Assembly: GCA_023246195.1 (NCBI GenBank)
Contig: JAHFIW010000012.1
Coordinates: 1-36,407, forward strand
Direction: 5' to 3'
Length of the DNA stretch: 36,407 nt
From: a bacterium
Lineage (GTDB): Bacteria > Patescibacteriota > Patescibacteriia > SG8-24
Positions 1-35,046 of this stretch are shown piece after piece. Below the pieces are notes generated by a model. That model saw nothing but the letters and a program-made list of their open reading frames with translations, was not told the origin of the DNA and did no database searches. Positions within the stretch are counted from its first letter, which is position 1; every line of letters begins with the position of its first letter. Position numbers and translations under genes: made by a program.

Positions 1-729
1 AACTCGCCCAAGGTCAACATCTCCACGGTCGAGGATCCGGTGGAATACCGCCTGGCAGGAGTGAATCAGAGCCAGGTCAACCCAAAAATCGGCTTCACTT
101 TCGCCAGCGGCCTGCGCGCCCTGTTGCGCCAGGACCCGAACATCATTCTCGTCGGCGAAATCCGCGACGAAGAGACCGCCAGCATTGCCGTGCAGGCGGC
201 GATGACCGGTCACTTGGTCATGGGCACGCTGCATACCAACGACGCCGCCACCTCCATCCCCCGCTTGCTGGACATGAACGTACCTCCCTTCCTGATTGCC
301 TTCACGGCCAACATGATCGTGGCCCAGCGTCTCGTGCGTAAGATCTGTCCCAACTGCGTCCGTTCCTACAAGCTGCCGGAACACGGACTCGAACAGCTTC
401 GCGAGCAAATCGACATCGACGGCATCTGGAAGAAGCTGCAGCGCGAGGAAATCGTGGCGGCCAACCAAAAGATCGAGGAGACCACCTTTTGGCGAGGTTC
501 CGGCTGCGCGCAATGCGGCAACGAGGGGTATAAGGGACGCGTGGGCATCTACCAGGTCATCGAGATCACGCCCGCCCTTTCCAGGATGATCAACAAAAAG
601 GCCGATGCCGACGAGATCAAGAAGGCGGCGATAGCCGAAGGCATGATCACCATGATCGAGGACGGCTTTGCCAAGGCGGTCAAGGCGGTCACGACCATCG
701 AGGAAATCCTCCGCGTTACGCGCGACTAA
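1..729 (+). CDS. pilB: Type IV pilus assembly ATPase PilB/GspE, C-terminal part (5' end outside window)
   Basis: This is the cytoplasmic hexameric ATPase that powers pilus extension. The reading frame is open from base 1, so the N-terminal domain and Walker A loop lie upstream of the window. The visible part starts at the aspartate box (VEDPVEY), then shows the Walker B region ([12 protein letters not shown]) and the histidine box ([13 protein letters not shown]). A zinc-binding region follows, with CPNC and, further on, CAQC and a [11 protein letters not shown] segment typical of PilB/GspE. PilT-type retraction ATPases lack this tetracysteine module, so extension ATPase is the better call. 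The stop is 19 bases before the pilC start, and the same-strand genes that follow form a classic pilB-pilC-pilins-pilMNO operon. Family assignment is secure. The choice between PilB and GspE rests on the neighbouring genes. Confidence 0.96.
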
Positions 730-748
730 GCGCGACACCCGCACCGTT

Positions 749-1846
749 ATGGCCTCGATCCAAGAAAGGCTGAGCAACTACCTGCTGCATAACGCCACGG
801 TCCCGCTGACCGACAAGGTGTTCTTCACCGAAAACCTGAAGGTCATGATCCATGCGGGACTCTCGATTTCCGAGGCGCTGCACACGCTGGCGCTGCAGGC
901 TGAAAAAAAATCGTTCCGCAAAGTCATCACGATGGTCAAGACCGATGTCGAATCCGGAAAGCTGCTGTCGCTCTCGCTGGCAAAGTTCCCGAAGATCTTC
1001 ACGTCGATCTTCGTCAGCATGGTCGAGATCGGCGAAGTCTCCGGCACGCTGGAGAACGTCCTGCAGGAACTGACCATGCAGATGAAGAAGGATTATGACC
1101 TCCGCTCCAGGGTAAAAGGCGCCATGACCTATCCCGTCGTCGTCATGGTGGCGATGCTGGGGATCACCGTCGGATTGGTCACCTTCGTGCTGCCCCAGCT
1201 GCTCGGCGTCTTCGCCAGTTTCGGCGACGTCAAGCTGCCGCTGGCCACGCGCGTGCTCATGGCCATTACCAACTTCACCCAAGCTCACGGCATCGCGCTG
1301 GCCGCGGGCATCGCGGTGAGCGTCATCGTCGCAGTCGCGTTCTTCCGCACCAAAATCGGCATCAGCATCTTCGACCGCGCCACCATCAACCTGCCGATCA
1401 TCGGACCGATCGCCCGCAAGGTCAACCTGGCCCGCTTCTCGCGCACCGTCTCGGGACTGTTGCATACCGATATTCCGGTCATCCAGGCGTTCGGCGTCAC
1501 CTCGCAGGTGCTGGGCAACGTGCACTTCCGCAACGCGACTCTCGATGCCGTCGAACGCATCAAGAAGGGCGAAGGCATCGGCAAAAGCCTGTCTGCCCAT
1601 GGCAAGCTCTTCCCGCCGCTTCTGGTACAGATGGTGCTGGTGGGAGAACGCGCCGGCAACGTCGACGAACTTCTGGCTGACATCGCCGCCTTCTACGAGC
1701 AGCAGGTCGACCAAGTACTCGGCAACCTCTCCTCCATCATCGAGCCGATTCTCATCCTGATGTTGGGCGGCATGGTCGGCGGCATCGCCTTGGCCGTCAT
1801 TACGCCTATTTACGCGCTCACGCAGTCCATCTCGGACTCAGGCTAA
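749..1846 (+). CDS. pilC: Type IV pilus inner-membrane platform protein PilC
   Basis: This is the polytopic membrane platform that couples the PilB motor to pilin polymerisation. From the ATG at 749 the protein is 365 residues, slightly shorter than the usual 400 or so. It has two T2SSF-type repeats. The first begins near residue 20 with FFTENLKVMIHAGLSISEA, and the second near residue 230 with ARFSRTVSGLLHTDIPVIQA. Three hydrophobic segments follow the family pattern: near residues 130-155, 175-200 and the C-terminus. The frame is open further upstream to 668, but that would overlap the pilB coding region by about 60 bases and add an Arg-rich tail unlike the family, so 749 is preferred. No Shine-Dalgarno sequence is visible before the start (CCGTTATGG). 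Confidence 0.95.
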   Translation: MASIQERLSNYLLHNATVPLTDKVFFTENLKVMIHAGLSISEALHTLALQAEKKSFRKVITMVKTDVESGKLLSLSLAKFPKIFTSIFVSMVEIGEVSGTLENVLQELTMQMKKDYDLRSRVKGAMTYPVVVMVAMLGITVGLVTFVLPQLLGVFASFGDVKLPLATRVLMAITNFTQAHGIALAAGIAVSVIVAVAFFRTKIGISIFDRATINLPIIGPIARKVNLARFSRTVSGLLHTDIPVIQAFGVTSQVLGNVHFRNATLDAVERIKKGEGIGKSLSAHGKLFPPLLVQMVLVGERAGNVDELLADIAAFYEQQVDQVLGNLSSIIEPILILMLGGMVGGIALAVITPIYALTQSISDSG

Positions 1847-1851
1847 CGCTC

Positions 1852-2832
1852 ATGCGCAACGCTCACTCCACCCACTCACCTGCCCGTCCGCCGGCCACCG
1901 CGGGCTTCACGCTGATGGAATCCATCGTCACTGTCGCGATAGCGGCGGTAATCCTTACGGTTTTTACTTCGACCATCTCGGCCTCGTACTTGTTGCGCAA
2001 ATCCACCCATGTCATCCAAGCCGGAAACTTTTTGCGCGAAGAGATCGACTCGCTGCGCACTCTTCCCTATGCTGAGCTCTTGAATCGTACCAATGGCAAC
2101 TTTCTCGGACTGTCGCTCACGCGCGGCCCGTGGAAAGTGAAAACGGTTTCCAGTCCGCCGTCCGGAACCAACGTTTTAGCCATGGAAACGGCCCAGACGG
2201 CGCTGGTCAACGAGACCGGCCTAGCCATCCTTCCCGGGAACTACCATGCCGACCTGGACATGACCGCAAAGTTTGATGTCCTCAGCAACTCCCCCGCCGG
2301 CTGGGGCGCCGGCCTCGTCTTCGATTATCGCGATGCCGAAAACCACTACCGCTACCGATACTCTTCCGGCGGCCTGGCGCTCGACAAGGTCGTTCACGGC
2401 ACCGTCACCACGCTCTGGTCGCAGAGCGCCACCTACGCCACCGGCACCTGGTACACGCTAGAGGTGGTGACCAGCGGCAGCAGCATCGCGCTGAAAAAGA
2501 ACGGCGTCACGTTGGCGACGGTCACCGACGCCACCTTCACCACCGGCGATGCCGGCCTGCAGACGCTCTCGAGCGCGCTCATCTACGTCGATGACGTCAG
2601 CATTGCCGAAAACGGCGTCACCACCTCTTGGAATTTCGACTCCGACGCGACCGGCGCCATGCCACTGGACTGGCAACGCTTCGTGTACTTCGATTTGCCG
2701 AGCGGCACGGGAACGCTGACCATCAGCGACTACCTCGGCGCAACGGGCATCAAGAATGTCACCGCCTCGGTGACCTGGAACGAAAACGGCGTGTCCAAGT
2801 CGGTTTCGGGAAGCTCGCTGATAGCGCAATAG
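1852..2832 (+). CDS. Prepilin-type minor pilin (PilV-like) with embedded LamG/concanavalin-like domain
   Basis: This 326-residue protein starts with a basic leader ending in Gly, followed by FTLMES and a hydrophobic helix. That is a prepilin peptidase site of the form G/FTLMES, with the usual Glu at mature position 5. The C-terminus (IKNVTASVTWNENG, then a short tail) resembles the last strands of PilV-type pilins. Between roughly residues 70 and 255 lies a beta-rich segment that looks like a LamG or DUF1080-type jelly roll: GTNVLAMETAQ, then GWGAGLVFDYRDAENHYRYRY, WYTLEVVTSGSSIALKKNG and a YVDDVSI ending. Ordinary minor pilins are 150-200 residues, so this is an inserted domain that probably binds carbohydrate or another surface ligand. 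It starts 5 bases after pilC. The pilin assignment is firm, but the lectin-like fold is inferred from sequence texture. Confidence 0.85.
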   Translation: MRNAHSTHSPARPPATAGFTLMESIVTVAIAAVILTVFTSTISASYLLRKSTHVIQAGNFLREEIDSLRTLPYAELLNRTNGNFLGLSLTRGPWKVKTVSSPPSGTNVLAMETAQTALVNETGLAILPGNYHADLDMTAKFDVLSNSPAGWGAGLVFDYRDAENHYRYRYSSGGLALDKVVHGTVTTLWSQSATYATGTWYTLEVVTSGSSIALKKNGVTLATVTDATFTTGDAGLQTLSSALIYVDDVSIAENGVTTSWNFDSDATGAMPLDWQRFVYFDLPSGTGTLTISDYLGATGIKNVTASVTWNENGVSKSVSGSSLIAQ

Positions 2833-2835
2833 CCT

Positions 2836-3450
2836 ATGTCATTTACCTTTCGCGCCCATCGCCGACGCAGCAACCGTGACTTCGGTTTCTCCCTCATCGA
2901 GAGCATCACGGTCATCGGCATCATGACCATCATCCTAGTGATGATCAACCAGATCTTCACGGTGGATTACGACTATACCATCAAGGCGCTGGCCCGCATC
3001 GACAACGATAACGGCGCCATCCTGGCGATGAGACGCATCGGCGAGCTCACCCGAGGCGCCACGGCAGTGCTCTCCAGCAAGACCATCAACGGCACGCTCT
3101 ACACCACTTCACCGACGACGCTGGTACTGCAAATGCCGTCACTCGACTCCTCGGGCAACGTCATCTCCGGGTGCTCGGACTACCTGGCGATCTATCGCGA
3201 CGTCACGGTGACGACGCAAATATGGACGGACATCGACATCAACAGCGTCACGTGTGCCGGCGGCACCAGCGTCCGCGTAGACGGCAAAAAACTCCTTACC
3301 GGCAACAACGCCGCCCTGACGTTCAGCTACAACAACTGGCAACCCTATAACGCCACTCGGATTTCCGTGTTCCTGGTGAACCAGAAGACCGTCCGCACCA
3401 CCACTCTTACCACCAAGACTTGGACATCCATTTTCTTACGTAATCACTAA
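2836..3450 (+). CDS. Prepilin-type minor pilin (PilW/PulJ-like)
   Basis: This 204-residue protein has a basic N-terminal leader, the processing motif G/FSLIES and a hydrophobic stretch to about residue 42. Glu5 of the mature form is present. The globular part is Thr/Ser-rich and has two Cys residues (GCSDY and VTCAGG), which could form a disulfide. There is an RIGELTRGA segment after the long helix, as in PilW/PulJ-type minor pilins. It starts 3 bases after the upstream pilin gene and ends 4 bases before the next. It is probably a minor subunit that helps initiate or cap the pilus. The precise minor-pilin class is uncertain because these proteins diverge quickly. Confidence 0.8.
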   Translation: MSFTFRAHRRRSNRDFGFSLIESITVIGIMTIILVMINQIFTVDYDYTIKALARIDNDNGAILAMRRIGELTRGATAVLSSKTINGTLYTTSPTTLVLQMPSLDSSGNVISGCSDYLAIYRDVTVTTQIWTDIDINSVTCAGGTSVRVDGKKLLTGNNAALTFSYNNWQPYNATRISVFLVNQKTVRTTTLTTKTWTSIFLRNH

Positions 3451-3454
3451 AAAC

Positions 3455-4858
3455 ATGGGCACTATCAAACCCAAGGCCAAAACGACGAACACCCGTCAAT
3501 TGCGGAAGAAAATTGACCTGCGCACATTATTGAAAAAAGTCCCGAACGGTTTTGCCCTGATTTCCGTCACCATCCTGCTCGGCATCCTGCTGGCCTTCAG
3601 CTTCATCCTGCTCAACGCGTCGCTCAACACGCGCTTCGTGGGCAACGTCTTCCAACAGGCGCTCTCGTCCGAACAAATCGCCGAGGCCGGACTGCACAAG
3701 GCGCTGTTCTGCATCAAGGCCACCACGGGCACCAACTGCGGCGGCACCAATGGCGCCAGCTATGCGGGCGAAAGCAACGTCAGTTTCGGCGGAGGCACGT
3801 TCAGCACCTCGGTCACCGGCGTAAGCCCCACGCTGACCGTCACGTCCGTCGGAACTTCGATCACCGGCCAAACCAAAAGGGTAAAGAGCGACATTTCAGC
3901 CCTTCCTCCGACCACGTCCATGACCATGACAGCCGCCGTCCAGGCCGGAGCGAGCGGCATCAGCATGTCGAACAACGTAGTCGTGATCGGCGACGGCAGC
4001 AATGTCGTTACCGACAGCGACGTCACCTCCATCGGCGACATCGTTTGCGGCAACAACGCCCAGATTTCCGGCAACGTGTCCGTGACGCGTTCGGGAGGCA
4101 AGATAGACAGCTGCAAAGTCACCCGTAACGCATACGCCGACCTCCTCACCAACGACAAAATCACGAAGGACGCCTACTATCTCACTCCGGTATCTGGCAT
4201 TTCCGGATCGACGGTCGGCGGCACCAAATATCCCAACAGCCCCACGCCCGTGCCGATCGCCATGCCCAACCTCGACATCCCCTATTGGGAAAGCGTCGCC
4301 TCTGCGGGAACGGTCTTTACGGGCGATGTAAACCTGTCCGGTTCCAACAACGTCCTCGGCCCGGAAAAGATCATCGGCAACCTCACCCTGTCGAACGGAA
4401 CCGTCCTGACGCTGACGGGACCCCTTTACGTCACCGGCAACGTCGACATCTCGAATAATTCCACCGTCAAACTCGACCCCTCGTTCGGCGCCGCCAGCGG
4501 CGTGTTCATCGCCGACGGAACGATCAACATCAGCAACAACGGCAACATCCAAGGTTCAGGCACCGCCGGCAGCGTCATCATCGTGGTCAGCAACAGCAAC
4601 AGCATGTCCAACTCCGCTCCCGCAATCATGGCCGAGAACAACGTTACCGGCGCGGTGCTCTACGCCCCGAATGGCGAAGTCCACACGAGCAACAACGCCA
4701 ACGTTCCGGCGGTTGTCGGCCTCAAGGTGGTCATGGACAATAACACCACCGTCAACTACGGATCCCTCAACATCTTCAACGCCCCCATCAACGTCGCCGC
4801 CAGCGGCAGCGGCACCGGCTGGCACATCCAGCCCAACTCCTGGCGCGAGTTCAAATAA
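3455..4858 (+). CDS. PilX-like pilus-associated protein with Asn-rich beta-solenoid-like ectodomain
   Basis: A 467-residue protein with a long basic N-terminus, then NGFALISVTILLGILLAF, which is a pilin-type processing site and helix. Position 5 is Val rather than Glu, as in PilX/GspK-class tip subunits, which often lack Glu5. The rest resembles the large PilX-like ectodomains seen next to pilus genes. From about residue 160 onward it has short repeated strands centred on NN or SNN (for example MSNNVVVIGDG, CGNNAQISGNV, LSGSNNV, ISNNSTVKL, ISNNGNI, TSNNANV), which suggests a right-handed beta-helix with an Asn ladder. Two Cys (CIKATTGTNC) lie just after the helix. As the third consecutive pilin-like gene in the operon, it is probably part of the tip complex. 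Confidence 0.78.
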   Translation: MGTIKPKAKTTNTRQLRKKIDLRTLLKKVPNGFALISVTILLGILLAFSFILLNASLNTRFVGNVFQQALSSEQIAEAGLHKALFCIKATTGTNCGGTNGASYAGESNVSFGGGTFSTSVTGVSPTLTVTSVGTSITGQTKRVKSDISALPPTTSMTMTAAVQAGASGISMSNNVVVIGDGSNVVTDSDVTSIGDIVCGNNAQISGNVSVTRSGGKIDSCKVTRNAYADLLTNDKITKDAYYLTPVSGISGSTVGGTKYPNSPTPVPIAMPNLDIPYWESVASAGTVFTGDVNLSGSNNVLGPEKIIGNLTLSNGTVLTLTGPLYVTGNVDISNNSTVKLDPSFGAASGVFIADGTINISNNGNIQGSGTAGSVIIVVSNSNSMSNSAPAIMAENNVTGAVLYAPNGEVHTSNNANVPAVVGLKVVMDNNTTVNYGSLNIFNAPINVAASGSGTGWHIQPNSWREFK

Positions 4859-4897: not shown

Positions 4898-6151
4898 ATG
4901 TCACTGCTGAACCCATTCTCAAACGCCTTCGGGCTGGATATCGGCGACCGCACGTTCAAAATCGTGCAGGTTGATCGTCGTGGAAAAAGAAAGCAGACCT
5001 ACCGCGTAACCGCCTGGAACACCATCGACGTGCCGGAAGGCGTGATGGACCGCGGCATCATCAAGGATATGGATGCGGCGGTGAAGTACCTCAAAAAGCT
5101 TTGCGGCGATGCAAACGGCAGAATTCACGGCAGCGCCGTCGTCGCCTGTCTTCCTGAAGCAAAAACGTTCATCAAGATCATCGAAGTTCCCAAGGGATCG
5201 AGCGCGGAAGTAGTGAGGGAAGCGGTGCGTCGGGAAATCGAGCAGAATATCCCGCTCCCTCCGGAAGACATCTATTCCGATTGGCAGATAATCGACGAGA
5301 AGTCTCCGTCACTGCCCTCCCCCAAGGCCTTAGCGGCGACAGACAAGAAGAGCGAAGTCAAAAAAGCCGTCGAGGAAAAGGCCGAATCCGCAAAGAACGA
5401 CGATGCGGAAAGCGCCGCTGAGGAAATGCCCTCAAACGACGACGAAAAACCGGCAGCAATGCGGCCGAACACCGTCAGGCTGCTGATGGGCGCGGCGCCG
5501 AAATCGCTGGTGGACAACTACACGGAACTTCTGGAGAAAGCCGGACTCGCTCCCATCGCGCTCGAAATCGAAGCCACCGCGATCAGCCGCGCGATCATTC
5601 CTCTCAACGAGTCCGCCGATGAGGCTGTCGGCATCCTCGACATCGGCGCCACCCGTTCCAGTCTGGTCATCTACGACTCCGGCGCGCTGCAGATGTCCAT
5701 CAGTATTCCCATCTCCGGGAACGACATCACCAAGCTGGTCAGCGAATCGCTGAGCGTAAGCCTGGTGGATGCCGAAAAGCTCAAGCGGGAATGCGGCCTC
5801 GACGCCGACCGCTGCGAAGACAAGATGTGGAACATCCTGTTGCCGCTCATCGACGACATTACCGAGAAGATTCACAACGCGCTCCGTTTCTACAAAATCG
5901 GCTTCCCTGCCGGAAAAAAGATCGAATGCCTGTACCTCTGCGGCGGCGGCGCGCTGTTCAGGGAAATCGACACCGTCCTGTCACGCAAGCTGACCATCAA
6001 GGCGCAGCGAGGCAACGTCTTCGCCAATCTCTCGCCACGCCTCCCCAAGGCCTTCCCCAAAAAGGACGAGGCCCTGATGTACGCCACGGCCATCGGCCTG
6101 GCCATCCGGGCGGCCGATGAAAACGCCGCGCATCACAACTCGCTTTCCTGA
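4898..6151 (+). CDS. pilM: Type IV pilus assembly protein PilM (actin-like ATPase fold)
   Basis: This is a cytoplasmic actin/FtsA-like protein that binds the N-terminal tail of PilN and links the motor to the membrane alignment complex. From the ATG at 4898 it has 417 residues. Nucleotide-binding segments are visible: phosphate-1 (GLDIGDRTFKIVQV, near residue 13), phosphate-2 (GILDIGATRSSLVIYDSG, near residue 245) and the adenosine region (LCGGGALFREID, near residue 348). A charged, low-complexity segment of about 60 residues (roughly 130-188, rich in Lys, Glu, Asp and Ala) interrupts the fold, which explains the excess over the usual 350. An upstream TTG at 4880 would add six residues. The ATG fits the GCTATG context shared with pilN and pilO. 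Confidence 0.93.
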   Translation: MSLLNPFSNAFGLDIGDRTFKIVQVDRRGKRKQTYRVTAWNTIDVPEGVMDRGIIKDMDAAVKYLKKLCGDANGRIHGSAVVACLPEAKTFIKIIEVPKGSSAEVVREAVRREIEQNIPLPPEDIYSDWQIIDEKSPSLPSPKALAATDKKSEVKKAVEEKAESAKNDDAESAAEEMPSNDDEKPAAMRPNTVRLLMGAAPKSLVDNYTELLEKAGLAPIALEIEATAISRAIIPLNESADEAVGILDIGATRSSLVIYDSGALQMSISIPISGNDITKLVSESLSVSLVDAEKLKRECGLDADRCEDKMWNILLPLIDDITEKIHNALRFYKIGFPAGKKIECLYLCGGGALFREIDTVLSRKLTIKAQRGNVFANLSPRLPKAFPKKDEALMYATAIGLAIRAADENAAHHNSLS

Positions 6152-6158
6152 CCGCGCT

Positions 6159-6743
6159 ATGCAGGTGACGCTGAACTTCCTCTCGCCGACAAAAAAAGCC
6201 CTGCTCAAGACGGGGTTCGCCTTCGCGTTCGCCCAGTCGATGCTGCTGGTGGTATTCGTGGCCGTCATCTTCTCGTCCGGACTGCTGCTGTCCCTTCGAA
6301 TGATGCTCGACGACATCAGTACCACCATCACTCAGCAGGCTTCGGGCAGCGATCGTGATTCCACCGCCCTCAACGAAGAGATCAAGACGGTCAACGATTA
6401 CCTGATTCGTCAGGACGGCTACCGTAAGGGCTACAACGACTGGGCATCGACGCTCACGAGCCTTACGACAATGGCGTCTGCCGGCATCCAGCTGAAGCTC
6501 ATTCATGTCGACACCGGCGGAATCGTGACCTTCAGCGGGAAGGCCCGTGATCGTCAAGACGTCCTGAACCTGGAAGCCAAGCTGAGAAATTCGAAAGTGT
6601 TCTTCAACGTCATAGCCCCGCTTTCCAACATCATGCAGCAGCATGACGTGGATTTCGAGTTCTCCATGCAAATGACGAATCCTCCGGTGCTTCCGTCGTA
6701 CGGCGACACGTCCAAGACGAAGCATCCCATAAAGAATTTCTGA
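6159..6743 (+). CDS. pilN: Type IV pilus assembly protein PilN-like
   Basis: A 194-residue bitopic membrane protein. A short cytoplasmic N-terminus (MQVTLNFLSPTKK) precedes one membrane helix at about residues 18-45 and an extracytoplasmic alpha/beta domain. The N-terminal LNFLSP resembles the INLLP segment by which PilN docks on PilM. The ectodomain segment IQLKLIHVDTGGIVTFSGKARDRQDVLNLEAKL matches the fold shared by PilN and GspL-like proteins. An alternative ATG at 6117 would overlap pilM by 35 bases and add 14 residues; 6159 is preferred because it follows the pilM stop and shares the GCTATG start context with pilM and pilO. The position between pilM and pilO supports the call. Confidence 0.85.
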   Translation: MQVTLNFLSPTKKALLKTGFAFAFAQSMLLVVFVAVIFSSGLLLSLRMMLDDISTTITQQASGSDRDSTALNEEIKTVNDYLIRQDGYRKGYNDWASTLTSLTTMASAGIQLKLIHVDTGGIVTFSGKARDRQDVLNLEAKLRNSKVFFNVIAPLSNIMQQHDVDFEFSMQMTNPPVLPSYGDTSKTKHPIKNF

Positions 6744-6747
6744 CGCT

Positions 6748-7386
6748 ATGTACATCAAGCAAAGAATGACGATCATGAGCGCCATTTTGACGACGCTCAC
6801 CCTCGGCATCGGCGGAGCCATCGGCATCCCGTCAATCCTTGCGATTCGGTCGTCCGTCACCGACATTGCCACGGCACAGGCAAAGCTCGATGAGCGCTAC
6901 GCGTTGCGCAAATACATGAGCAAGGCAGCCATCGACATCGCCGACAAGAAGAAGCGTGTCGCGCCGCTCGCCGGCGCCGCCCTGCAGGAAGGAGGAGAGC
7001 TGGCCTTCGTCACCGACATCGAAACAGCGGCGGAAACGTCCGGCGTGACCGAAAAACTGACGCTTGAAACGGCAAACCAAGTCGAGATCAGCCCGTGGGA
7101 ACGCGAGATTCCCGTGACGATCGCCGCTACCGGCGTATACCCGAACGTCATCGCCTTCATCGACGCCCTTCAGCGCATGCCCTACCTGCTCGACATGTCC
7201 ACCGTTGACCTTTCCCCCAACGTCGCCCCGACGTCGGGCACCGTATCGCTCGAACTTCACGGCGTCGTCTATTGGCTTGGAAAGAGCGCTCCTGACTTCG
7301 TTCGCGGCAAGATCGATACCGCCGCCCTTCCCCCCGCCGCATCCGGCACGGACAGTACCAAACCCGCTGCAAACAAACCTCTATGA
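6748..7386 (+). CDS. pilO: Type IV pilus assembly protein PilO-like
   Basis: A 212-residue membrane protein with one N-terminal helix (about residues 10-32), a short coiled-coil-prone region (about 35-75) and a C-terminal ferredoxin-like region. The segments GELAFVTDIETAAETSGV and IPVTIAATGVYPNVIAFIDAL, followed by PYLLDMSTVDLS, have the pattern of PilO: a helix, then strands that dimerise with PilN. It starts 4 bases after pilN, and its TGA stop overlaps the next start as ATGA. Its sequence diverges from characterised PilO proteins, so the call leans on size, topology and operon order. Confidence 0.83.
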   Translation: MYIKQRMTIMSAILTTLTLGIGGAIGIPSILAIRSSVTDIATAQAKLDERYALRKYMSKAAIDIADKKKRVAPLAGAALQEGGELAFVTDIETAAETSGVTEKLTLETANQVEISPWEREIPVTIAATGVYPNVIAFIDALQRMPYLLDMSTVDLSPNVAPTSGTVSLELHGVVYWLGKSAPDFVRGKIDTAALPPAASGTDSTKPAANKPL

Positions 7387-16836: not shown

Positions 16837-17913
16837 TTACAATTCAACCATCGAGTTGTCGCCGACGATCAGCTTGTGGCCCATCGGCAGGGTCTCGTGC
16901 GCGGACAGCACCGAGGCGTTCTCGCCGATCATGCTGTCCACGATGCGCTTGGAGCAGTTGATGTCTACCTGATTGAACACCACCGAATGTTCGATCTCGG
17001 TATTGTAGATTTCCACGCCGTCGCCGATGGACGTGTACGGGCCTATGTAGCTGTTGCGAATCACGCAGTTCTCGCCGATGACCACGGGCCCGCGGATGAG
17101 CACGCGCTCGCCGATCTCCGTCCCCTTTCCGATCTTGACCTTGCCGTGCAGCGTGGCGCCTTCCGCCACCGTGCCCTCAACGGTCATGTCTTCGGACTTC
17201 ATCTCGGAGAGAAGCAGCTGATTGCCCTCGAGCAGGTCTTCCGGCTTGCCGGTGTCCTTCCACCAACCGGTAATTTCCTGATAACCGATGGCATAACCGT
17301 GTTCGATCAGCCACGTATGCACGTCAGAAATCTCGTACTCGCCGCGAGCCGAGGGCGCGATGGCATCCACCGCCTTGAAGACGTTGCTGTCGTAGCAATA
17401 GATGCCGGTGACGGCGTATTCGCTCTTCGGGACGCTGGGTTTCTCCTCGACGCGCACGATCTTTCCGTCGCGCAGTTCCGGCACGCCGAAGCGGCTGGGA
17501 TCCTTCACCTTGGCCAGCGCCAACAAGCCGTTGACCTTGTCATCCCTGAACTTCCGCACGAAGTTCCTGATGCTGCCCAAGATGATGTTGTCGCCCAAGT
17601 AGAACAAAAACGAGTCGTCACCGAGAAACGGCTGCGCCACTTTCAAGATGTGCGCCAAGCCCTTCGGCCCGCCAGTCTGCTCGATGTACGTGATCTTCAC
17701 GTTCCAGCGGGAACCGTCGCCGCAGGCCTTCTGGATTTCCTCTTCGCCCGGATTCAGATTGATGCCGATCTCGGTGATGCCGGCTTCGGCGATCTTCTCG
17801 ATGGCATAAAAAAGCATCGGCTTGTTGGCAAGCGGGATAAGATGCTTGTTGATGGTCCAAGTGATGGGACGGAGCCGCGTGGCGCGTCCGCCGGCCGTAA
17901 TCAGGGCTTTCAT
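16837..17913 (-). CDS. rmlA: Glucose-1-phosphate thymidylyltransferase, long form
   Basis: Makes dTDP-glucose from dTTP and glucose-1-phosphate, the entry to dTDP-L-rhamnose. The ATG at 17913 gives 358 residues, matching the long StrD/RmlA-long class rather than the 290-residue RfbA. The nucleotidyltransferase domain has the signature ALITAGGRATRLRPIT with INKHLIPLANKPM, then LFYLGDNII and a GEYEISDVH region with WWKDTGKPEDLL. From about residue 250 a left-handed beta-helix of hexapeptide repeats follows (VEGTVAEGATLHGKVKIG, IGENCVIRNSYIGPYTSIG). An upstream in-frame ATG at 17964 is rejected because the family starts at MKALITAGG. It lies apart from rmlBCD, with the Nudix-like gene between. 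Members of this class could also accept other sugar-1-phosphates. Confidence 0.93.
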   Translation of the reverse strand: MKALITAGGRATRLRPITWTINKHLIPLANKPMLFYAIEKIAEAGITEIGINLNPGEEEIQKACGDGSRWNVKITYIEQTGGPKGLAHILKVAQPFLGDDSFLFYLGDNIILGSIRNFVRKFRDDKVNGLLALAKVKDPSRFGVPELRDGKIVRVEEKPSVPKSEYAVTGIYCYDSNVFKAVDAIAPSARGEYEISDVHTWLIEHGYAIGYQEITGWWKDTGKPEDLLEGNQLLLSEMKSEDMTVEGTVAEGATLHGKVKIGKGTEIGERVLIRGPVVIGENCVIRNSYIGPYTSIGDGVEIYNTEIEHSVVFNQVDINCSKRIVDSMIGENASVLSAHETLPMGHKLIVGDNSMVEL

Positions 17914-17922
17914 AACGCTTAA

Positions 17923-17931
17923 AGAATACCA
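17923..17931 (-). promoter_or_regulatory. Extended -10 element ahead of rmlA
   Basis: On the minus strand, TGGTATTCT, followed by TTAAGCGTT and the ATG. The -10 ends 9 bases before the start codon, so the transcript would carry almost no leader. It shares TGGTAYTCTTTAAGC with the S41 protease promoter. No good -35 is found at 16-18 bases. Confidence 0.45.
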
Positions 17932-17985
17932 GACGGCGGTACCAAAAAATACCTCGACTGTCAACGGTCGGTGGATAAAGAAAAA

Positions 17986-18011
17986 GCCGCCGCACGGTGA
18001 AGTGCGGCGGC
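17986..18011 (-). terminator. Intrinsic terminator downstream of the Nudix-like gene
   Basis: A perfect 10-base stem (GCCGCCGCAC with GTGCGGCGGC) has a 6-base loop. Read on the minus strand it is followed immediately by TTTTTCTTTA. It lies 10 bases past the stop at 18022. Confidence 0.9.
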
Positions 18012-18021
18012 GAAAAGTGCC

Positions 18022-18735
18022 CTAAAACCTGAATCCGGCAACCGTCAGGCCTGCCAAAGTAAGACCGTCCTGAATGACTCCGGTATCGACCATGACGCGA
18101 ATCTGCGCCATGTCGAAGAGGGTAGTCTGCCCGACCATCTCGAGCTCTTCGGGCTGCGCCGCGCAACGTGACACCACGCGTCCCTTGACCACGTACTGTG
18201 AGTGGGCAAAAAGCGTGGTGTTGGCATTGAGCCTGCCGCAGACGCGAGCGTCAGCGATGCCGAAGCCCGACTCCTCGAGCGCTTCCGCCTTGGCAGTCGC
18301 CAGGACGAACTTCTCGAGGTCGGTCTCCTCTTCGAGCTGCGACAGGCCGCGCGGCAATTCCCATTCCCAGCGACCGAGCGTCGCCAGCAGTTCGTCCCAA
18401 CGACGTTCGGCGTCGAGCCGCCGCACGAAGTCCTTGCCGGCATCCATGAGCCGTTCGCCGGTGAAGCGGTAATTCTGGACCAACCCGATCTTCTCGCCCG
18501 CCTGGCAGGCGACGATGGCGCCGGCGTTTTCGACGAAAAGCGGCTGGTCATAGACGTCACGGAGATCCCCATCCACGACTTTTTGCACGACCACGCGCAG
18601 CATTGCCAATCCCCGTTCGTTGACGAGGCCGCCCGTCCCCGTCGATGCCGGTTTCCAGCCGACGAGTTTTTTCGAAAGATCATCTTCCTGCAGCTGCCGT
18701 ACGGCGCCAGCGGGAGCCTTCTTTGCTGATTCCAT
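18022..18735 (-). CDS. Nudix-like hydrolase with degenerate Nudix box
   Basis: A 237-residue soluble protein. The segment from about residue 126 (WELPRG) to residue 157 (AKAEALEESGFG) aligns with the strand-box-helix of ADP-ribose pyrophosphatase-like Nudix proteins, in which a PAG/PRG turn precedes REL-x-EE-x-G. Here the box Arg is replaced (AEALEESG) and the spacing between PRG and the helix is longer than standard. The two Glu of EE that bind metal are kept. The C-terminal part (VVSRCAAQPEELEMVGQTTLFDMAQIR) resembles the closing strands and helix of the fold. The ATG at 18735 is preceded by AGGAAAGGA, a plausible Shine-Dalgarno site. It has its own promoter and terminator between rmlA and rmlDCB. 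Substrate unknown; activity may be altered. Confidence 0.6.
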   Translation of the reverse strand: MESAKKAPAGAVRQLQEDDLSKKLVGWKPASTGTGGLVNERGLAMLRVVVQKVVDGDLRDVYDQPLFVENAGAIVACQAGEKIGLVQNYRFTGERLMDAGKDFVRRLDAERRWDELLATLGRWEWELPRGLSQLEEETDLEKFVLATAKAEALEESGFGIADARVCGRLNANTTLFAHSQYVVKGRVVSRCAAQPEELEMVGQTTLFDMAQIRVMVDTGVIQDGLTLAGLTVAGFRF

Positions 18736-18773
18736 GGATATTCCTTTCCTGCCCCTGCGGTCAGAAGACTTCA

Positions 18774-18801
18774 AACGTAGCAGAAATACCCGAAAAGTCA
18801 A
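18774..18801 (-). promoter_or_regulatory. Probable promoter of the Nudix-like gene
   Basis: On the minus strand: TTGACT (18796-18801), a 16-base spacer ending TGC, then TACGTT (18774-18779). The extended TGn compensates for a poor -10. The leader would be about 32 bases and carries a Shine-Dalgarno-like AGGAAAGGA. Confidence 0.5.
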
Positions 18802-18827
18802 GGCTTTTGCCGCACATGAGCAAAAAA

Positions 18828-18845
18828 GCCGCGCACGTGCGCGGC
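18828..18845 (-). terminator. Intrinsic terminator at the end of the rml operon
   Basis: A perfect 18-base palindrome (arms GCCGCGCAC and GTGCGCGGC) lies 14 bases past the rmlD stop. Read on the minus strand it is followed by six Ts. A fully paired palindrome would open a small loop in RNA. Confidence 0.85.
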
Positions 18846-18859
18846 CTTCGTTTTCCATT

Positions 18860-19729
18860 TCACCTTGACTCGGCCTGTTCTTCCGCGAAGAACGCCTTAA
18901 GTGCGTCCATGCGACTTCGCAACGGCGGAAACTTGGTATTTTTAAGCGGTGCGAACAGGGGTCGCTTTGCCGGACGAGGAAACGCCGACATCGGCACCGG
19001 CTTCCGGGGAACGGTGACGCCGGTAAGACCGAAGAATTCCTCGGCGAATCCATACCAGGTCACGCCAAGGCCTTCGTTCACCAGATGGTACGTGCCAAAC
19101 GCGTACGTGCCGCTCACCAATCGGACCGTCGCTTCCGCGAGATCCTTGGTATACGTCGGCATGCCGACCTCTTCGTCGACGATGGAAAGTTCCGGCTTAG
19201 TCTTGGCGAGCGTGCACATCACCGAGACGAAGCTCGGCTTGGCTGCGACCGACGTTCCCGGCCGTCCGTACAGCTTCGAAGTGCGAACGACGAACGACTT
19301 TCCGCCTGCGGCAATGACCGCACGCTCACCCGCCAGCTTGCTTTCGCCGTATGCCGACAGAGGATGCGGTTCATCGGATTCGACATAGCCCTCCGGCCTG
19401 GTGCCTTCAAAGACGTAGTCTGAGCTGTAATGCACGAAGGAGGCGTTTGCCGCCTTGGCAGCCTCAGCCATGACGCCAGGAGCGTCGGCGTTCAACGCGA
19501 AAGCCAACGGACGTTTGGCGGCATCTTCCGCGCCATCGACGTCGTTCCAGGCGACCGCGTTCACCACGACTCCGCAACCGGAAGCGGAAATGGCCGCGCG
19601 GACGGCTCCGGCGTCAGTGACATCGAGGGTATCGCGGTCATGGGCGATCACCTCATGACCGGCATCCGTGAAGACGCGGACCAAGTCGCAACCGAGATTG
19701 CCCTGGGATCCGAAGATAAGAACTTTCAT
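18860..19729 (-). CDS. rmlD: dTDP-4-dehydrorhamnose reductase
   Basis: Last step of dTDP-L-rhamnose synthesis, reducing dTDP-4-keto-L-rhamnose with NAD(P)H. The 289-residue protein is a short-chain dehydrogenase: Rossmann motif at the N-terminus (VLIFGSQGNLGCDL), VVNAVAWNDVDGAE, the FVHYSSDYVFEGT strand with the active-site Ser/Asp/Tyr region, and the YGESK catalytic Tyr-Lys pair. GTYHLVNEG and the C-terminal PLKNTKF segment match RmlD. It is the last gene of the eight-gene operon, 11 bases after rmlC, and is followed by a terminator. Confidence 0.93.
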   Translation of the reverse strand: MKVLIFGSQGNLGCDLVRVFTDAGHEVIAHDRDTLDVTDAGAVRAAISASGCGVVVNAVAWNDVDGAEDAAKRPLAFALNADAPGVMAEAAKAANASFVHYSSDYVFEGTRPEGYVESDEPHPLSAYGESKLAGERAVIAAGGKSFVVRTSKLYGRPGTSVAAKPSFVSVMCTLAKTKPELSIVDEEVGMPTYTKDLAEATVRLVSGTYAFGTYHLVNEGLGVTWYGFAEEFFGLTGVTVPRKPVPMSAFPRPAKRPLFAPLKNTKFPPLRSRMDALKAFFAEEQAESR

Positions 19730-19740
19730 TCGAAATGCCT

Positions 19741-20316
19741 TTAGAGGGAGGCCGCCTCGTAAACGAACGGCGAATTATCCGATGTCAGCAGCGGAAAGGT
19801 GCGGTCGCGCTCGTTGACGAGCGGTGCGCCGAGCTTCGCGACCAGGGGCCACTTGATGTTGACCGCAGGATCGTCGAAGCGCACTCCCCCTTCGGCATCC
19901 TTGGCATAGCCGCTCTTGCCGACCAGGTACATCAGCTCGCAATCCGTAAGCGAATAGAAACCGTGAGCGAACCCGCTCGGCACGGAGAGCATCAGTCTGT
20001 TTTCGGCAGACAGCTCGATGCCAAACCATTTTCCAAAAGTCGGAGACCCTCGACGGATGTCCACCGCGACATCGTACAGGCGACCGATGACGCAGCGTAC
20101 CAACTTGGTCTGGTCGCTCGGCGGAGCCTGAAAATGCAGCCCGCGCAAAACGCCCGCCTTGGAAAAGCTCTGGTTGATCTGCAGCACGCCCGGCTCGATG
20201 CCAAGCGCCTTCAGCTTCGGGGCGCTGTGCGCCTCAAAGAAGTAGCCACGCTCGTCGCTGAATACTTTCGGCTCCACCACGAGGAGGCCCGGGATGCCGG
20301 TTTCGATGATTTTCAT
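19741..20316 (-). CDS. rmlC: dTDP-4-dehydrorhamnose 3,5-epimerase
   Basis: Double epimerase acting on dTDP-4-keto-6-deoxyglucose, third enzyme of the rhamnose pathway. The 191-residue cupin has family motifs: DERGYFFEAH near residue 21, NQSFSKAGVLRGLHFQ with the catalytic His, KLVRCVIGRLYDVAVDIR, SVPSGFAHGFYSL, and the catalytic Tyr region with YEA at the end. It lies between rmlB (25 bases upstream) and rmlD (11 bases downstream). Confidence 0.95.
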   Translation of the reverse strand: MKIIETGIPGLLVVEPKVFSDERGYFFEAHSAPKLKALGIEPGVLQINQSFSKAGVLRGLHFQAPPSDQTKLVRCVIGRLYDVAVDIRRGSPTFGKWFGIELSAENRLMLSVPSGFAHGFYSLTDCELMYLVGKSGYAKDAEGGVRFDDPAVNIKWPLVAKLGAPLVNERDRTFPLLTSDNSPFVYEAASL

Positions 20317-20341
20317 GACGATTCTGTTCTTAAGGTGCCCA

Positions 20342-21367
20342 TTACACCGTCGCTCCCAAAGTCTGCCGGTAATAAGTGTCGTAGTACTTCTGATACTCCC
20401 CCGTCTTCACGCGCATCCACCACTGCGGGTTGTCGCGGTACCACTCCACCGTCTGGCGCATGCCTTCCTCGAAGGAGATCTTCGGAGCCCAGCCGGTTTC
20501 AGTTCGGAGTTTGGCGGAGTCGATGGCATAGCGACGGTCGTGGCCGGGACGGTCGGGCACGTAGGTCTTCAACGTGTGCGGTTTGCCCAACGTGGCAAGA
20601 ATGGCATCGGTGATTTCTTCGACCGACTTTTCTACGCCGGTGCCGATGTTGTAGGCCTCGCCGATCCTGCCCTTCTGCAAAATGGCGTCGACGGCGGCGC
20701 TATGATCGTCAGCATGGATCCACTCTCGGCGGTTCTGGCTGCTCCTGAAGAGCGGCAACGGCCTGTCTTCCAGGGCGTTGGTGGCGAACAGCGGAATGAG
20801 CTTTTCGGGGAACTGGCACGGACCGAGGTTGTTGCAGCAGTTGCTGATGGTCACCGGCAGCCCGAAGGTGTGGCCATAGGCGGCAACCACGTGATCAGAT
20901 GCGGCCTTGGAGGCGCTGTAGGGAGTGCGCGGCTTGCGCGGCTCAAGTTCGGTCCAAGAGCGCGGCTCGTCGAGGCCGAGGTCGCCGAAGACTTCGTCGG
21001 TGGAGATGTGGTGAAAACGGATGTTGCCGGCCTTGCGGCAGGCCTCAAGCAACGTCTGCGTGCCCATGACGTTGGTGCGGAAGAAGATGCCCGGATCGAG
21101 CACGCCGCGGTCGTTGTGCGACTCGGCGGCAAAGTGCACCACCGTGTCCACGCCCCTGAGCGACGCAGTCACGGCATTCGCGTCGCAAATGTCACCCTTG
21201 ATGAAGGAGTAACGCGGATTGCGCGCGACATCGATCAGGTTGTCCAAGTTACCCGCATACGTGAGCGCGTCAAAATTCACGACCTGGACGTCGTCGTGTT
21301 CCCTGAGCATGTAGCGGATGAAGGCCGAGCCGATGAACCCGGCGCCTCCGGTGACGAGGATCTTCAT
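20342..21367 (-). CDS. rmlB: dTDP-glucose 4,6-dehydratase
   Basis: Converts dTDP-glucose to dTDP-4-keto-6-deoxyglucose with bound NAD+. The ATG at 21367 gives 341 residues, standard for RmlB. Visible are the Rossmann motif TGGAGFIGSAF, FAAESHNDRG, the catalytic triad region STDEVFGDL (Thr123, Asp124, Glu125), YSASKAASDH with Y150 and K154, and the substrate loop with NCCNNLGPCQFPEKLIP. The usual SHVDRS is SHNDRG here. An upstream frame to 21451 overlaps the HIT gene and is not used. It is 8 bases after the HIT gene and begins the rmlBCD block. Confidence 0.95.
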   Translation of the reverse strand: MKILVTGGAGFIGSAFIRYMLREHDDVQVVNFDALTYAGNLDNLIDVARNPRYSFIKGDICDANAVTASLRGVDTVVHFAAESHNDRGVLDPGIFFRTNVMGTQTLLEACRKAGNIRFHHISTDEVFGDLGLDEPRSWTELEPRKPRTPYSASKAASDHVVAAYGHTFGLPVTISNCCNNLGPCQFPEKLIPLFATNALEDRPLPLFRSSQNRREWIHADDHSAAVDAILQKGRIGEAYNIGTGVEKSVEEITDAILATLGKPHTLKTYVPDRPGHDRRYAIDSAKLRTETGWAPKISFEEGMRQTVEWYRDNPQWWMRVKTGEYQKYYDTYYRQTLGATV

Positions 21368-21375
21368 AGGTGAAG

Positions 21376-21789
21376 TCAGTTCTTGAGCAGCTCGGCCATG
21401 TCGGCGGCCGTCTTTTGCATTTCGGATTCGGACACCGCGCGCTTGCCCCAATGCAGCAGTCCGTCATCGGGAAATCTGGGCATCATGTGGACGTGCGTGT
21501 GCATGACGACCTGACCCGCAACGGCCCCGCAGTTGATGCCGACGTTGTAGCCTTCGGCACCCGTAGCGGCCATCGCGGCGCGCGCCACCTTGCGGACGGC
21601 GGCCATCGCGGCAGCCATGGCTTCGTCGGTGGTTTCATCGCAGCTGTCAAAATGCTGCTTGGGAATTACCAGGGTATGACCGACGTTCACCGGCGCGATG
21701 TCCAAAAAAGCGAAGACCTTGTCGTCCTCATAGACCTTATGCGACGGGATTGCGCCACTGGCGATTTTGCAGAAAAGGCAGTCGTGCAT
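21376..21789 (-). CDS. HIT family protein (Hint/HinT-like)
   Basis: A 137-residue nucleotide-binding protein of the histidine triad superfamily. CLFCK at the N-terminus gives a possible zinc Cys pair, PVNVGHTLVIPKQHF is the conserved strand-helix, and the HIT motif is HTHVHMMPRF with the catalytic His near residue 98. Relatives hydrolyse adenosine 5'-phosphoramidates or dinucleoside polyphosphates. Its place in an envelope operon has no obvious functional reason, and such genes are often co-transcribed for convenience. It starts 12 bases after the upstream membrane protein. Confidence 0.93.
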   Translation of the reverse strand: MHDCLFCKIASGAIPSHKVYEDDKVFAFLDIAPVNVGHTLVIPKQHFDSCDETTDEAMAAAMAAVRKVARAAMAATGAEGYNVGINCGAVAGQVVMHTHVHMMPRFPDDGLLHWGKRAVSESEMQKTAADMAELLKN

Positions 21790-32871: not shown

Positions 32872-33897
32872 TTACTTCCCCAACGACGGGCGCAACAGGC
32901 CGCGATGGGCGATGGTGTATTCGATGGAGTGCTTGAGGCCGGCCTCGAGCGAGACGAGCGGCAGCCACCCAAGCTGGTCCTTTGCGCGGGTAAGGTCGGG
33001 CAAACCGAGCTGCGACATGAACAGCAGAGGCGCCTCGAAGCCGATCTTTGACGAAGATCCGGTCAGTTCGGCGATCTTCTTGGCCACGTCGGCGATGCGG
33101 ATGTCGTAGTCGCTGCCGATGTTCACCGGACCGGGATCCTTCGGCATGCGCATCAGCCTGACGATGGCATCGACCACGTCGGAGACGTAGATGAGCGACG
33201 TGCGGAAGCTCTCGTCACCGTAAATGACGAGATCCTTGCCGTCGAGCGCGTTGATCATGAAGTCGGGAAGCATCTGACCGTCGTTGAGCAGCATGCGCGG
33301 ACCGTACGTGCGGAAGATGCGCCCGATGCGCACGTCGATGCCGTGAACCTGACTGTAGGTGTACGCCATGGTTTCCGCCCAGCGTTTTCCTTCGTCGTAG
33401 CAGCTGCGCGGCGTAAGATGGTCAAAGGTGCCGTACTCCTCTTCCTTGAAAAGATGGCCGTCCGCAGGACGCGTTCCGTAGATGACGCTCGATGACGCGA
33501 AGAAGAACTTAGCCTTGTTGGCCACGGCGAGCTCGAGCACGTTACGCATGCCGACGGAGTTGGACAACAGCGTCTGGTAGCGGAGCTCGTCGAAATTCTT
33601 TGCCGAGGTGGGACAGGCAAGATGATACACTTCCTGAAAGCCCTGGAACTTCAGCTGGAAGCGCTCGAGTTCGGGATACTTGTCAAAGTCGATCGGTTCG
33701 TTGATGTCGGCCCTGATGAACTCGAAGTCCTGGTTCTTGAGCAGGTGATCGATGTTGTTTTCCTGCGACGTGACGAAATTATCGATGCAGACGACGCGAC
33801 AGTCGTTGAGCAGCTTTTCGCAGAGGAACGAGCCGATGAAGCCCGCGCCGCCGGTCACCAGGACGTTCGGTTTTTCGAAAATCGGTTTTTGAGGCAT
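32872..33897 (-). CDS. Extended SDR sugar-nucleotide epimerase/dehydratase (UXS-like), paralog 1
   Basis: A 341-residue NAD(P)-dependent enzyme of the extended short-chain dehydrogenase family, closest in texture to UDP-glucuronate decarboxylase. Motifs are NVLVTGGAGFIGSFLCE, VYHLACP, ASSSVIYG, SCYDEGKRWAE with the catalytic Tyr and Lys, and RIGRIFRTYGPRM. Where decarboxylases have a catalytic Glu (STSEVYG), this protein has Val, as in epimerases, so the reaction is uncertain. The ATG at 33897 follows a good promoter. It starts a run that continues through GT2, DUF2304, GT2 and two GT4 genes. It is a tandem paralog of the next gene upstream, with roughly 60% identity by eye. Confidence 0.85.
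   Translation of the reverse strand: MPQKPIFEKPNVLVTGGAGFIGSFLCEKLLNDCRVVCIDNFVTSQENNIDHLLKNQDFEFIRADINEPIDFDKYPELERFQLKFQGFQEVYHLACPTSAKNFDELRYQTLLSNSVGMRNVLELAVANKAKFFFASSSVIYGTRPADGHLFKEEEYGTFDHLTPRSCYDEGKRWAETMAYTYSQVHGIDVRIGRIFRTYGPRMLLNDGQMLPDFMINALDGKDLVIYGDESFRTSLIYVSDVVDAIVRLMRMPKDPGPVNIGSDYDIRIADVAKKIAELTGSSSKIGFEAPLLFMSQLGLPDLTRAKDQLGWLPLVSLEAGLKHSIEYTIAHRGLLRPSLGK
33083..33141. repeat. 59-base tract identical to 34172-34230 (copy in paralog 1)
   Basis: This tract is identical base for base to the one at 34172-34230 in the neighbouring paralog, including all synonymous positions. It encodes KDPGPVNIGSDYDIRIADVA in both. It ends abruptly where the amino acid sequences diverge. Confidence 0.9.
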
Positions 33898-33909
33898 AGG
33901 TACCGCTTT

Positions 33910-33938
33910 AGTATAGGGAAGACGCCGAATTAACGCAA
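33910..33938 (-). promoter_or_regulatory. Promoter of the SDR-GT2-DUF2304-GT2-GT4-GT4 operon
   Basis: On the minus strand: TTGCGT (33933-33938), a 17-base spacer, then TATACT (33910-33915). The -10 is the same hexamer as in the rpmA promoter. It lies 12 bases from the ATG at 33897, so the leader is about 5 bases. The -35 overlaps the arm of the upstream terminator. Confidence 0.6.
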
Positions 33939-33964
33939 AAATGCCCCAATAATGGGGCATTTTT
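33937..33964 (-). terminator. Intrinsic terminator downstream of SDR paralog 2
   Basis: A perfect 11-base stem (AAAAATGCCCC with GGGGCATTTTT) closes a 6-base AATAAT loop, 5 bases past the stop at 33970. The A/T ends supply a T-tract on either strand. It separates the two paralogous SDR genes. Confidence 0.9.
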
Positions 33965-33969
33965 GGCTA

Positions 33970-34986
33970 TTACAGGTCTTTGATCAAACCGCGGTTGGCC
34001 ACGGTGTACTCGATGGTCCGCTTGAGCCCCTGCTCGAAGGTGACCACCGGCATCCAGCCGAGCTCCTCACGGACCTTGGTGAGATTCGGAAGGCCGTGCT
34101 GCGCCATGTAGTACGGCGGCTGGTCGTTGAGGATGTGAGAGGACGAACCGGTCAAGTCGACGATGCGCTTCGCCACGTCGGCGATGCGGATGTCGTAGTC
34201 GCTGCCGATGTTCACCGGACCGGGATCCTTGACGGTCTGCATCATCAGCATCACGGCATCGACGCAGTCAGTGACGTACAGGAACGAACTGCGCAGGTCG
34301 GGGCTGAAGATGACGATGTCCTTGTCGTCGATGGAATTCTGGATGAAGTCCGGGATGAGGTGGCCGTCATCGAGCGGCATGCGCGGACCGTACGTGCGGA
34401 AGATGCGACCGATGCGCACGTCGATGCCGTAGACTTGGCGGTACGTGTCGACCATCGTCTCGGCCCACTGCTTGCCCTGGTCGTAGCAGCTGTTCGGTTC
34501 GAGGTGACCGAAGGTGCCGTACTCCCCTTCCTTGAGCAGGTGGCCGTCGGCAGGGCGCGGTCCGTACACCACGGCGCTCGACGCCAAGAAGAATTTCGAC
34601 TTCCACTTTACGGCGACCTCCAGGACGTTGTGCAGGCCGACGGAATTGGTGAGCAGCGTCTGCAGCTGAAACTGGTCGAAGCGGCGGCCGGTGCGCGGGC
34701 AGGCCAAGTGATAGATTTCCTGGATGCCCTGCAGCTTCAGGTTGAACAGCTGCAGCTCGGGATACGTTTCCAGGTCGAATGGCTCGTTGACGTCGTGGCG
34801 GATGAACTCAAAATCGGAGTTCTTGAGAAGGTGGACGATGTTCTCCGGATGAGAGGTGGAGAAGTTGTCCATGCAGATCACGCGGCAATCCTCCTTGAGG
34901 AGACGCTCGCACAGGAACGCGCCGATGAAGCCGGCACCGCCGGTCACCAGGACGTTGCGTTTTCCGAATATCGACATGTTGCTCAT
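33970..34986 (-). CDS. Extended SDR sugar-nucleotide epimerase/dehydratase (UXS-like), paralog 2
   Basis: A 338-residue protein from the ATG at 34986; a second ATG at 34977 would give 335. It has NVLVTGGAGFIGAFLCE, IYHLACP, ASSAVVYG, SCYDQGKQWAE (catalytic Tyr and Lys) and RIGRIFRTYGPRM. As in paralog 1, Val replaces the Glu found in UDP-glucuronate decarboxylases, so an epimerase-like or other reaction is possible. The two genes are tandem, in the same orientation, about 60% identical by eye, and contain nearly identical nucleotide tracts. A terminator follows, so it belongs to a different transcript from paralog 1, probably with its own -10 at 35016-35021. Confidence 0.85.
   Translation of the reverse strand: MSNMSIFGKRNVLVTGGAGFIGAFLCERLLKEDCRVICMDNFSTSHPENIVHLLKNSDFEFIRHDVNEPFDLETYPELQLFNLKLQGIQEIYHLACPRTGRRFDQFQLQTLLTNSVGLHNVLEVAVKWKSKFFLASSAVVYGPRPADGHLLKEGEYGTFGHLEPNSCYDQGKQWAETMVDTYRQVYGIDVRIGRIFRTYGPRMPLDDGHLIPDFIQNSIDDKDIVIFSPDLRSSFLYVTDCVDAVMLMMQTVKDPGPVNIGSDYDIRIADVAKRIVDLTGSSSHILNDQPPYYMAQHGLPNLTKVREELGWMPVVTFEQGLKRTIEYTVANRGLIKDL
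34172..34230. repeat. 59-base tract identical to 33083-33141 (copy in paralog 2)
   Basis: Second copy of the identical tract. A further near-identical pair (54 bases with one mismatch) is at 34377-34430 and 33291-33344. Confidence 0.9.
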
Positions 34987-35015
34987 AAGGGGGAATCCGT
35001 AGTGGGAATGCGGAA

Positions 35016-35021
35016 AGTATA
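35016..35021 (-). promoter_or_regulatory. Possible -10 box ahead of SDR paralog 2
   Basis: TATACT on the minus strand, in the 60-base gap after the GtrA gene. It ends 29 bases from the ATG at 34986. No clear -35 is found at 16-18 bases. The gap size and the hexamer, shared with two stronger promoters here, support it. Confidence 0.4.
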
Positions 35022-35046
35022 CCTCGATTGGTCGGTAATCTGCCAC

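Follow-up and report, generated by a model that had tools for sequence, protein, structure and literature searches.

Sequence comparisons and a predicted structure point to a circularly permuted CBM66-type domain inserted into a minor pilin of Patescibacteria

Background

Modular pilins, including ones that carry PF13385 lectin domains, have been catalogued by Raynaud et al. (PMC8179133). In the modular minor pilin PilC of S. sanguinis, Ig-like and lectin modules lie C-terminal to the pilin module, and the ConA-type lectin module binds glycans (PMC9934059). Another layout, in which the module lies inside the pilin, has been described for GspK and ComZ (PMC8179133); in ComZ of Thermus thermophilus, a DNA-binding beta-solenoid is inserted between the last two strands of the pilin fold (PMC6561018). 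Among Patescibacteria, Saccharibacteria TM7x has two pilus systems and minor pilins with jelly-roll or beta-propeller domains; these domains are C-terminal in PilX1 and PilX2, neither of which has a predicted PilD site, and the propeller-bearing PilX2 is required for normal host binding (PMC12206443). Outside pilins, the CBM66 module of the Bacillus subtilis levanase SacC (4azz, 4b1l, 4b1m) is a beta-sandwich of canonical strand order that is appended to an enzyme and binds the ends of fructans, although CBM66 members vary in ligand, which may be fructan or xanthan (PMC11002231).

Here we describe a pilin that resembles each of these systems in part. It shares with PilC a class III signal peptide, a ConA-type beta-sandwich and a likely position as tip subunit, but its module lies within the pilin, as a single permuted sandwich in the alpha-beta loop. 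As in ComZ, the extra domain is inserted into the pilin fold and not added at an end; here, however, it is a lectin-type sandwich that precedes the first head-sheet strand. Like TM7x, the organism belongs to the Patescibacteria and has two pilus systems, whereas its jelly roll sits in a PilV-position pilin with a canonical leader. With the CBM66 of SacC the insert has in common its fold and a detectable sequence homology, but in the pilin the domain appears in permuted form. As PilC shows, lectin-type modular pilins are already known; what is new, as judged from the open-access papers searched, is where the domain is inserted, that it is circularly permuted and that it is of CBM66 type.

Results and discussion

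A minor pilin encoded beside the pilus assembly machinery

The gene was found in a contig of 36,407 nucleotides (the window) from the genome, about 1.17 Mb at 98% completeness, of an ultra-small, uncultured Uhrbacteria-family Patescibacterium. It occupies positions 1852..2832 of the forward strand, on which the pilin segments and operon genes given below also lie, and encodes 326 amino acids; on sequence and model its product is a type IV minor pilin in the PilV position. The class III leader peptide (residues 1-18; 1852..1905) has a predicted cleavage site after G18 and places E23 at Glu+5, and the prepilin motif (TAG/FTLMES, the slash marking cleavage) matches TIGR02532 at 19.2 bits, above the cut-off of 16.3. 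G18 and E23 are invariant in a 20-row alignment of the family, which comprises the window protein and 19 full-length relatives that are 26-58% identical over the whole chain, and this full-length alignment rules out a chance open frame. In the AlphaFold2 (AF2) model, a long alpha-1 helix (residues 21-68; 1912..2055, by AF2/DSSP) is predicted to pack with an antiparallel head sheet, the three strands of which lie at residues 286-325 in the C-terminal part of the protein (residues 284-326; 2701..2829). The intact prepilin leader and the PilV-like C-terminus that had been read from the sequence are thus both borne out. As it joins a pilin N-terminus to a domain that is not specific to pili, the protein is a modular pilin in the sense of Raynaud et al. 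(2021).

The gene lies in a type IV pilus operon. It is preceded by the C-terminal part of the assembly ATPase gene pilB (4..729) and by the platform protein gene pilC (749..1846), the latter recognised by eye from its translation and from an operon position that is the same in relatives. Because the end of another contig of this genome (C23) overlaps the window start by 195 bases, with three mismatches, inside pilB, this gene very probably spans the two contigs, with its remainder on C23. Downstream follow genes for a PilW-like minor pilin (2836..3450) and a large PilX-like pilin without Glu+5 (3455..4858), both assigned by position and N-terminus, and then pilM (4898..6151; PF11104, 1.9e-38), pilN (6117..6743; weak PF05137 match and position) and pilO (6748..7386; weak PF04350 match and position), the names past PilM being assigned partly by position. 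The family genomes that were read have the order pilB, pilC, this pilin gene, a PilW-like gene, one or two large PilX-like genes, pilM, pilN and pilO. A prepilin peptidase gene (pilD) is also present in the genome, as is a gene for a pilT-type ATPase, read by eye on contig C7; the pilin is therefore encoded alongside pilB, pilC, pilD and pilT.

Several other features of the genome were recorded. A second type IV pilus operon (L132, contig C17:1-7000; 2195-3739) encodes a 515-residue pilin-like protein with LVIVD propeller repeats (PF08309, 38 bits), in a layout that resembles TM7x PilX2. Another candidate modular pilin is encoded on contig C26 (L135; 928-2871), where a prepilin motif and carboxypeptidase-regulatory-like domains (PF13620) occur together in a protein of 648 residues. 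In the window itself, a cluster of nucleotide-sugar genes (one thymidylyltransferase-like, others resembling rmlD, rmlC and rmlB) and a pair of similar epimerase genes lying side by side were recognised by eye at 16837-21451 and 32872-35046, possibly for the synthesis of surface polysaccharide, and an open frame with FG-GAP/VCBS-like repeats lies near the contig end on the reverse strand (35483-36361, also by eye).

A beta-sandwich between alpha-1 and the head sheet

The sequence-only reading had proposed that a LamG/DUF1080-type jelly roll of about 185 residues is built into this pilin. The AF2 model of the whole protein, computed from the 20-row alignment, has a mean pLDDT of 91.2 and a pTM of 0.83; besides the helix at 21-68 and the three C-terminal strands, it contains 14 strands between residues 95 and 260. 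A Foldseek search of the PDB with the whole protein returned as best matches the levanase CBM66 structures 4b1m, 4b1l and 4azz (E 6e-8, TM to target 0.69-0.80); the galactocerebrosidase lectin domain and galectins came next. The insert modelled alone (pLDDT 87.4) also matched CBM66 (E 2e-7, TM 0.76-0.79, rmsd 2.8-3.6 over about 170 columns). At the sequence level, the family profile reaches CBM66 sequences with an E-value of 2e-14, while phmmer with the single window protein found no match in the PDB. PF06439 matches 15 of the 20 family members (best 7e-9) and Laminin_G_3 matches ten; in the window protein, the PF06439 match (residues 180-249, E 0.001) stays below the gathering cut-off, at 19.6 against 26.8 bits. 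PF06439 passes its cut-off in four of 38 genomes, and three of those matches are this pilin.

Since model, fold search and profile and Pfam matches agree, we take the jelly roll to be real, and together they support its assignment as a LamG/DUF1080-class beta-sandwich homologous to CBM66. The structure prediction and fold search thus returned a ConA-like sandwich, and neither an ordinary pilin sheet alone nor a separate C-terminal domain lacking a jelly roll. What has to be revised is the position of the domain: it had been placed at residues 60-260, and the model puts it slightly further along, at about residues 89-283 (some 195 amino acids).

The insertion site could be located by comparison with a pilin that has no insert. 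In another genome of the same class (G349), a pilin of 128 residues covers positions 8-71 and 273-319 of the family profile and almost nothing between, and its downstream neighbour is homologous to the PilW-like gene of the window (29% identity, E 3e-16). Because this insert-free pilin is found at the same genomic position, the insert can be placed after alpha-1 ends and ahead of the first head-sheet strand; the boundaries of the C-terminal head segment likewise follow from the model and this comparison. On the same two grounds, the alpha-beta loop of the pilin ahead of the graft comprises residues 69-88 (2056..2115). The core of the sandwich follows at residues 89-255 (2116..2616; model, Foldseek and profile search).

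The insert as a circular permutant of stand-alone domains

Residues 256-283 (2617..2700; WNFDSDATGAMPLDW), which complete the insert, form a strand and loop that are C-terminal here and N-terminal in stand-alone relatives. One such relative (L065) matches the insert profile in two blocks whose order is swapped: positions 167-185 of the profile come first and 5-160 second. Plasmids of Proteobacteria, Bacteroidota and Actinomycetota carry further canonical relatives. Scored against a canonical HMM built from seven stand-alone proteins, 19 of the 20 pilin inserts improve when residues 256-283 are put in front, the boundary of the moved piece having been picked by eye ahead of scoring. The summed score of the permuted inserts is 790.4 bits, compared with 726.3 +/- 4.8 when the piece is shuffled (maximum 745.4 in 200 shuffles), and 14 of the 20 individually exceed at least 95% of shuffles. 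Permuting also improves the hhalign comparison, from an E-value of 3.9e-22 to 3.8e-24, and extends it from 160 to 183 aligned columns; in the alignment, the pilin motif WNFDSDxxGxxPxxW stands against the xxFxxxxxGxxPxGW that opens the canonical domains.

It could be argued that there was no true permutation and that the likeness of the N- and C-terminal pieces to the canonical order is fortuitous. Consistent with this, permuted and native inserts score equally against CBM66 and Pfam models, and single reciprocal matches are weak (E 0.04-1.4). The equal scores arise because these models align, and cover, the core only, for which reason the permutation test became informative only once canonical stand-alone relatives were used. 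Because the 20 sequences are also related by descent, the shuffle result cannot be read as a p-value, and it supports one ancestral event, not twenty. Set against the shuffled-piece control, the gain in hhalign and the alignment itself, a chance resemblance seems to us quite improbable. These comparisons indicate that the insert differs from its stand-alone secreted relatives by a circular permutation, which has left its own first strand at its C-terminal end. A permutation at the alpha-beta loop would bring the ends of the domain together, as insertion into a loop needs.

Among the canonical stand-alone relatives, we also observed that on three plasmids of Sphingopyxis and Cupriavidus (L096, L097, L098) the domain adjoins a ChrB-type chromate resistance gene.

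Distribution of the architecture

A scan of named genomes with the single window protein found no relatives, and with an eight-row family alignment it found eight loci, seven of which are full-length pilins. In the class-level search, the full-length architecture was found in 26 of 381 sampled genomes, from 12 families as counted by hand, with one member truncated at the C-terminus; the other genomes gave mostly matches to the pilin N-terminus only. Outside the class, a phylum-level search with the insert recovered the domain mainly within much larger open frames and yielded no full-length pilin of this type. By these sequence searches, the inserted domain is conserved across many families of one class of Patescibacteria.

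What the inserted domain may do

We favour, as the somewhat better than even reading, a modular PilV-position pilin whose permuted CBM66/LamG-like insert is displayed at the pilus tip and serves as a glycan-binding contact subunit. The pilin would be cleaved by PilD, enter the filament by way of alpha-1 and probably join the adjacent PilW- and PilX-like pilins in a tip complex; the sandwich, carried in the loop that joins alpha-1 to the head sheet, would then be displayed at the tip, where it most likely binds carbohydrate on another cell or surface, and retraction by PilT would pull the cell in. A role as tip adhesin or in host recognition is reasonable in view of PilC of S. sanguinis, a lectin of the same general fold (PMC9934059), and of ComZ of T. 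thermophilus; TM7x, too, requires its propeller-bearing PilX2 to bind its host normally (PMC12206443).

The pattern of conservation bears on what kind of contact subunit this could be. Within the family, conservation of the insert is 51%, compared with 44-55% for the pilin parts, so that it is no more variable than they are; in the one closely related pair, L007 and L008, conservation is lower in the insert (78%) than in alpha-1 (96%). With family-wide conservation on a par with that of the other pilin parts, the insert does not resemble a rapidly diversifying host-recognition domain, and we judge a fast-evolving recognition domain unlikely. In the alignment with canonical relatives, the stand-alone family motifs DQAGG, RANALEDNV and WTKADS were not found in the pilin inserts, and for this reason a ligand cannot be transferred to them. 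Together, the conservation of the insert and the loss of these motifs warn against naming it a host-recognition domain.

Both observations would also fit a sandwich that binds no glycan and is a structural or docking module, which stabilises or caps a PilV-PilW-PilX tip complex or keeps a further surface protein in place: the insert is conserved as much as the pilin parts, and the canonical pocket motifs are lost. There is a precedent for such a role in S. sanguinis, where strand complementation allows one minor pilin to stabilise a second, although the ConA-type pilin module for which assays exist, that of PilC, binds glycans (PMC9934059). Moreover, the pilin of the same class that occupies the same position without an insert implies that assembly does not in general need one. 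We therefore regard a purely structural role as the less likely explanation, with perhaps one chance in a few of being right.

The pili of Patescibacteria have been linked to DNA uptake, and this counts in favour of an insert that binds DNA and serves uptake in the manner of ComZ. ComZ too has an inserted beta-rich domain, which has been argued to be located at the tip (PMC6561018). The insert is, however, acidic (pI 4.6), and Foldseek returned CBM66 and galectin-like sandwiches and no solenoid, which makes DNA binding very improbable. PF06439 does give the best match in Pfam, but we judged a 3-keto-disaccharide hydrolase-type enzyme very unlikely, since the window protein falls under the cut-off of that model, RANALEDNV and WTKADS, conserved in stand-alone relatives, are gone, and the nearest solved structure is a non-catalytic binding module.

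Conclusions

Its inserted domain, which we favour as a glycan-binding contact module, makes this pilin a good candidate for the pilus component that meets other cells or surfaces. More tentatively, and with the odds against it, a lineage of Patescibacteria may have turned a secreted CBM66-like domain, permuted so that its ends meet in the pilin loop, into a pilus contact subunit by which an epibiont recognises a glycan on the surface of its host cell. In the open-access papers searched, we found no earlier account of a pilin that acquired a domain through circular permutation at the alpha-beta loop, which would represent a route for such grafting. Pili are leading suspects in the question of how epibiotic bacteria of ultra-small size locate their hosts and stay attached to them, and the insert, as a defined and confidently modelled domain, could be expressed for glycan arrays without culturing the organism.
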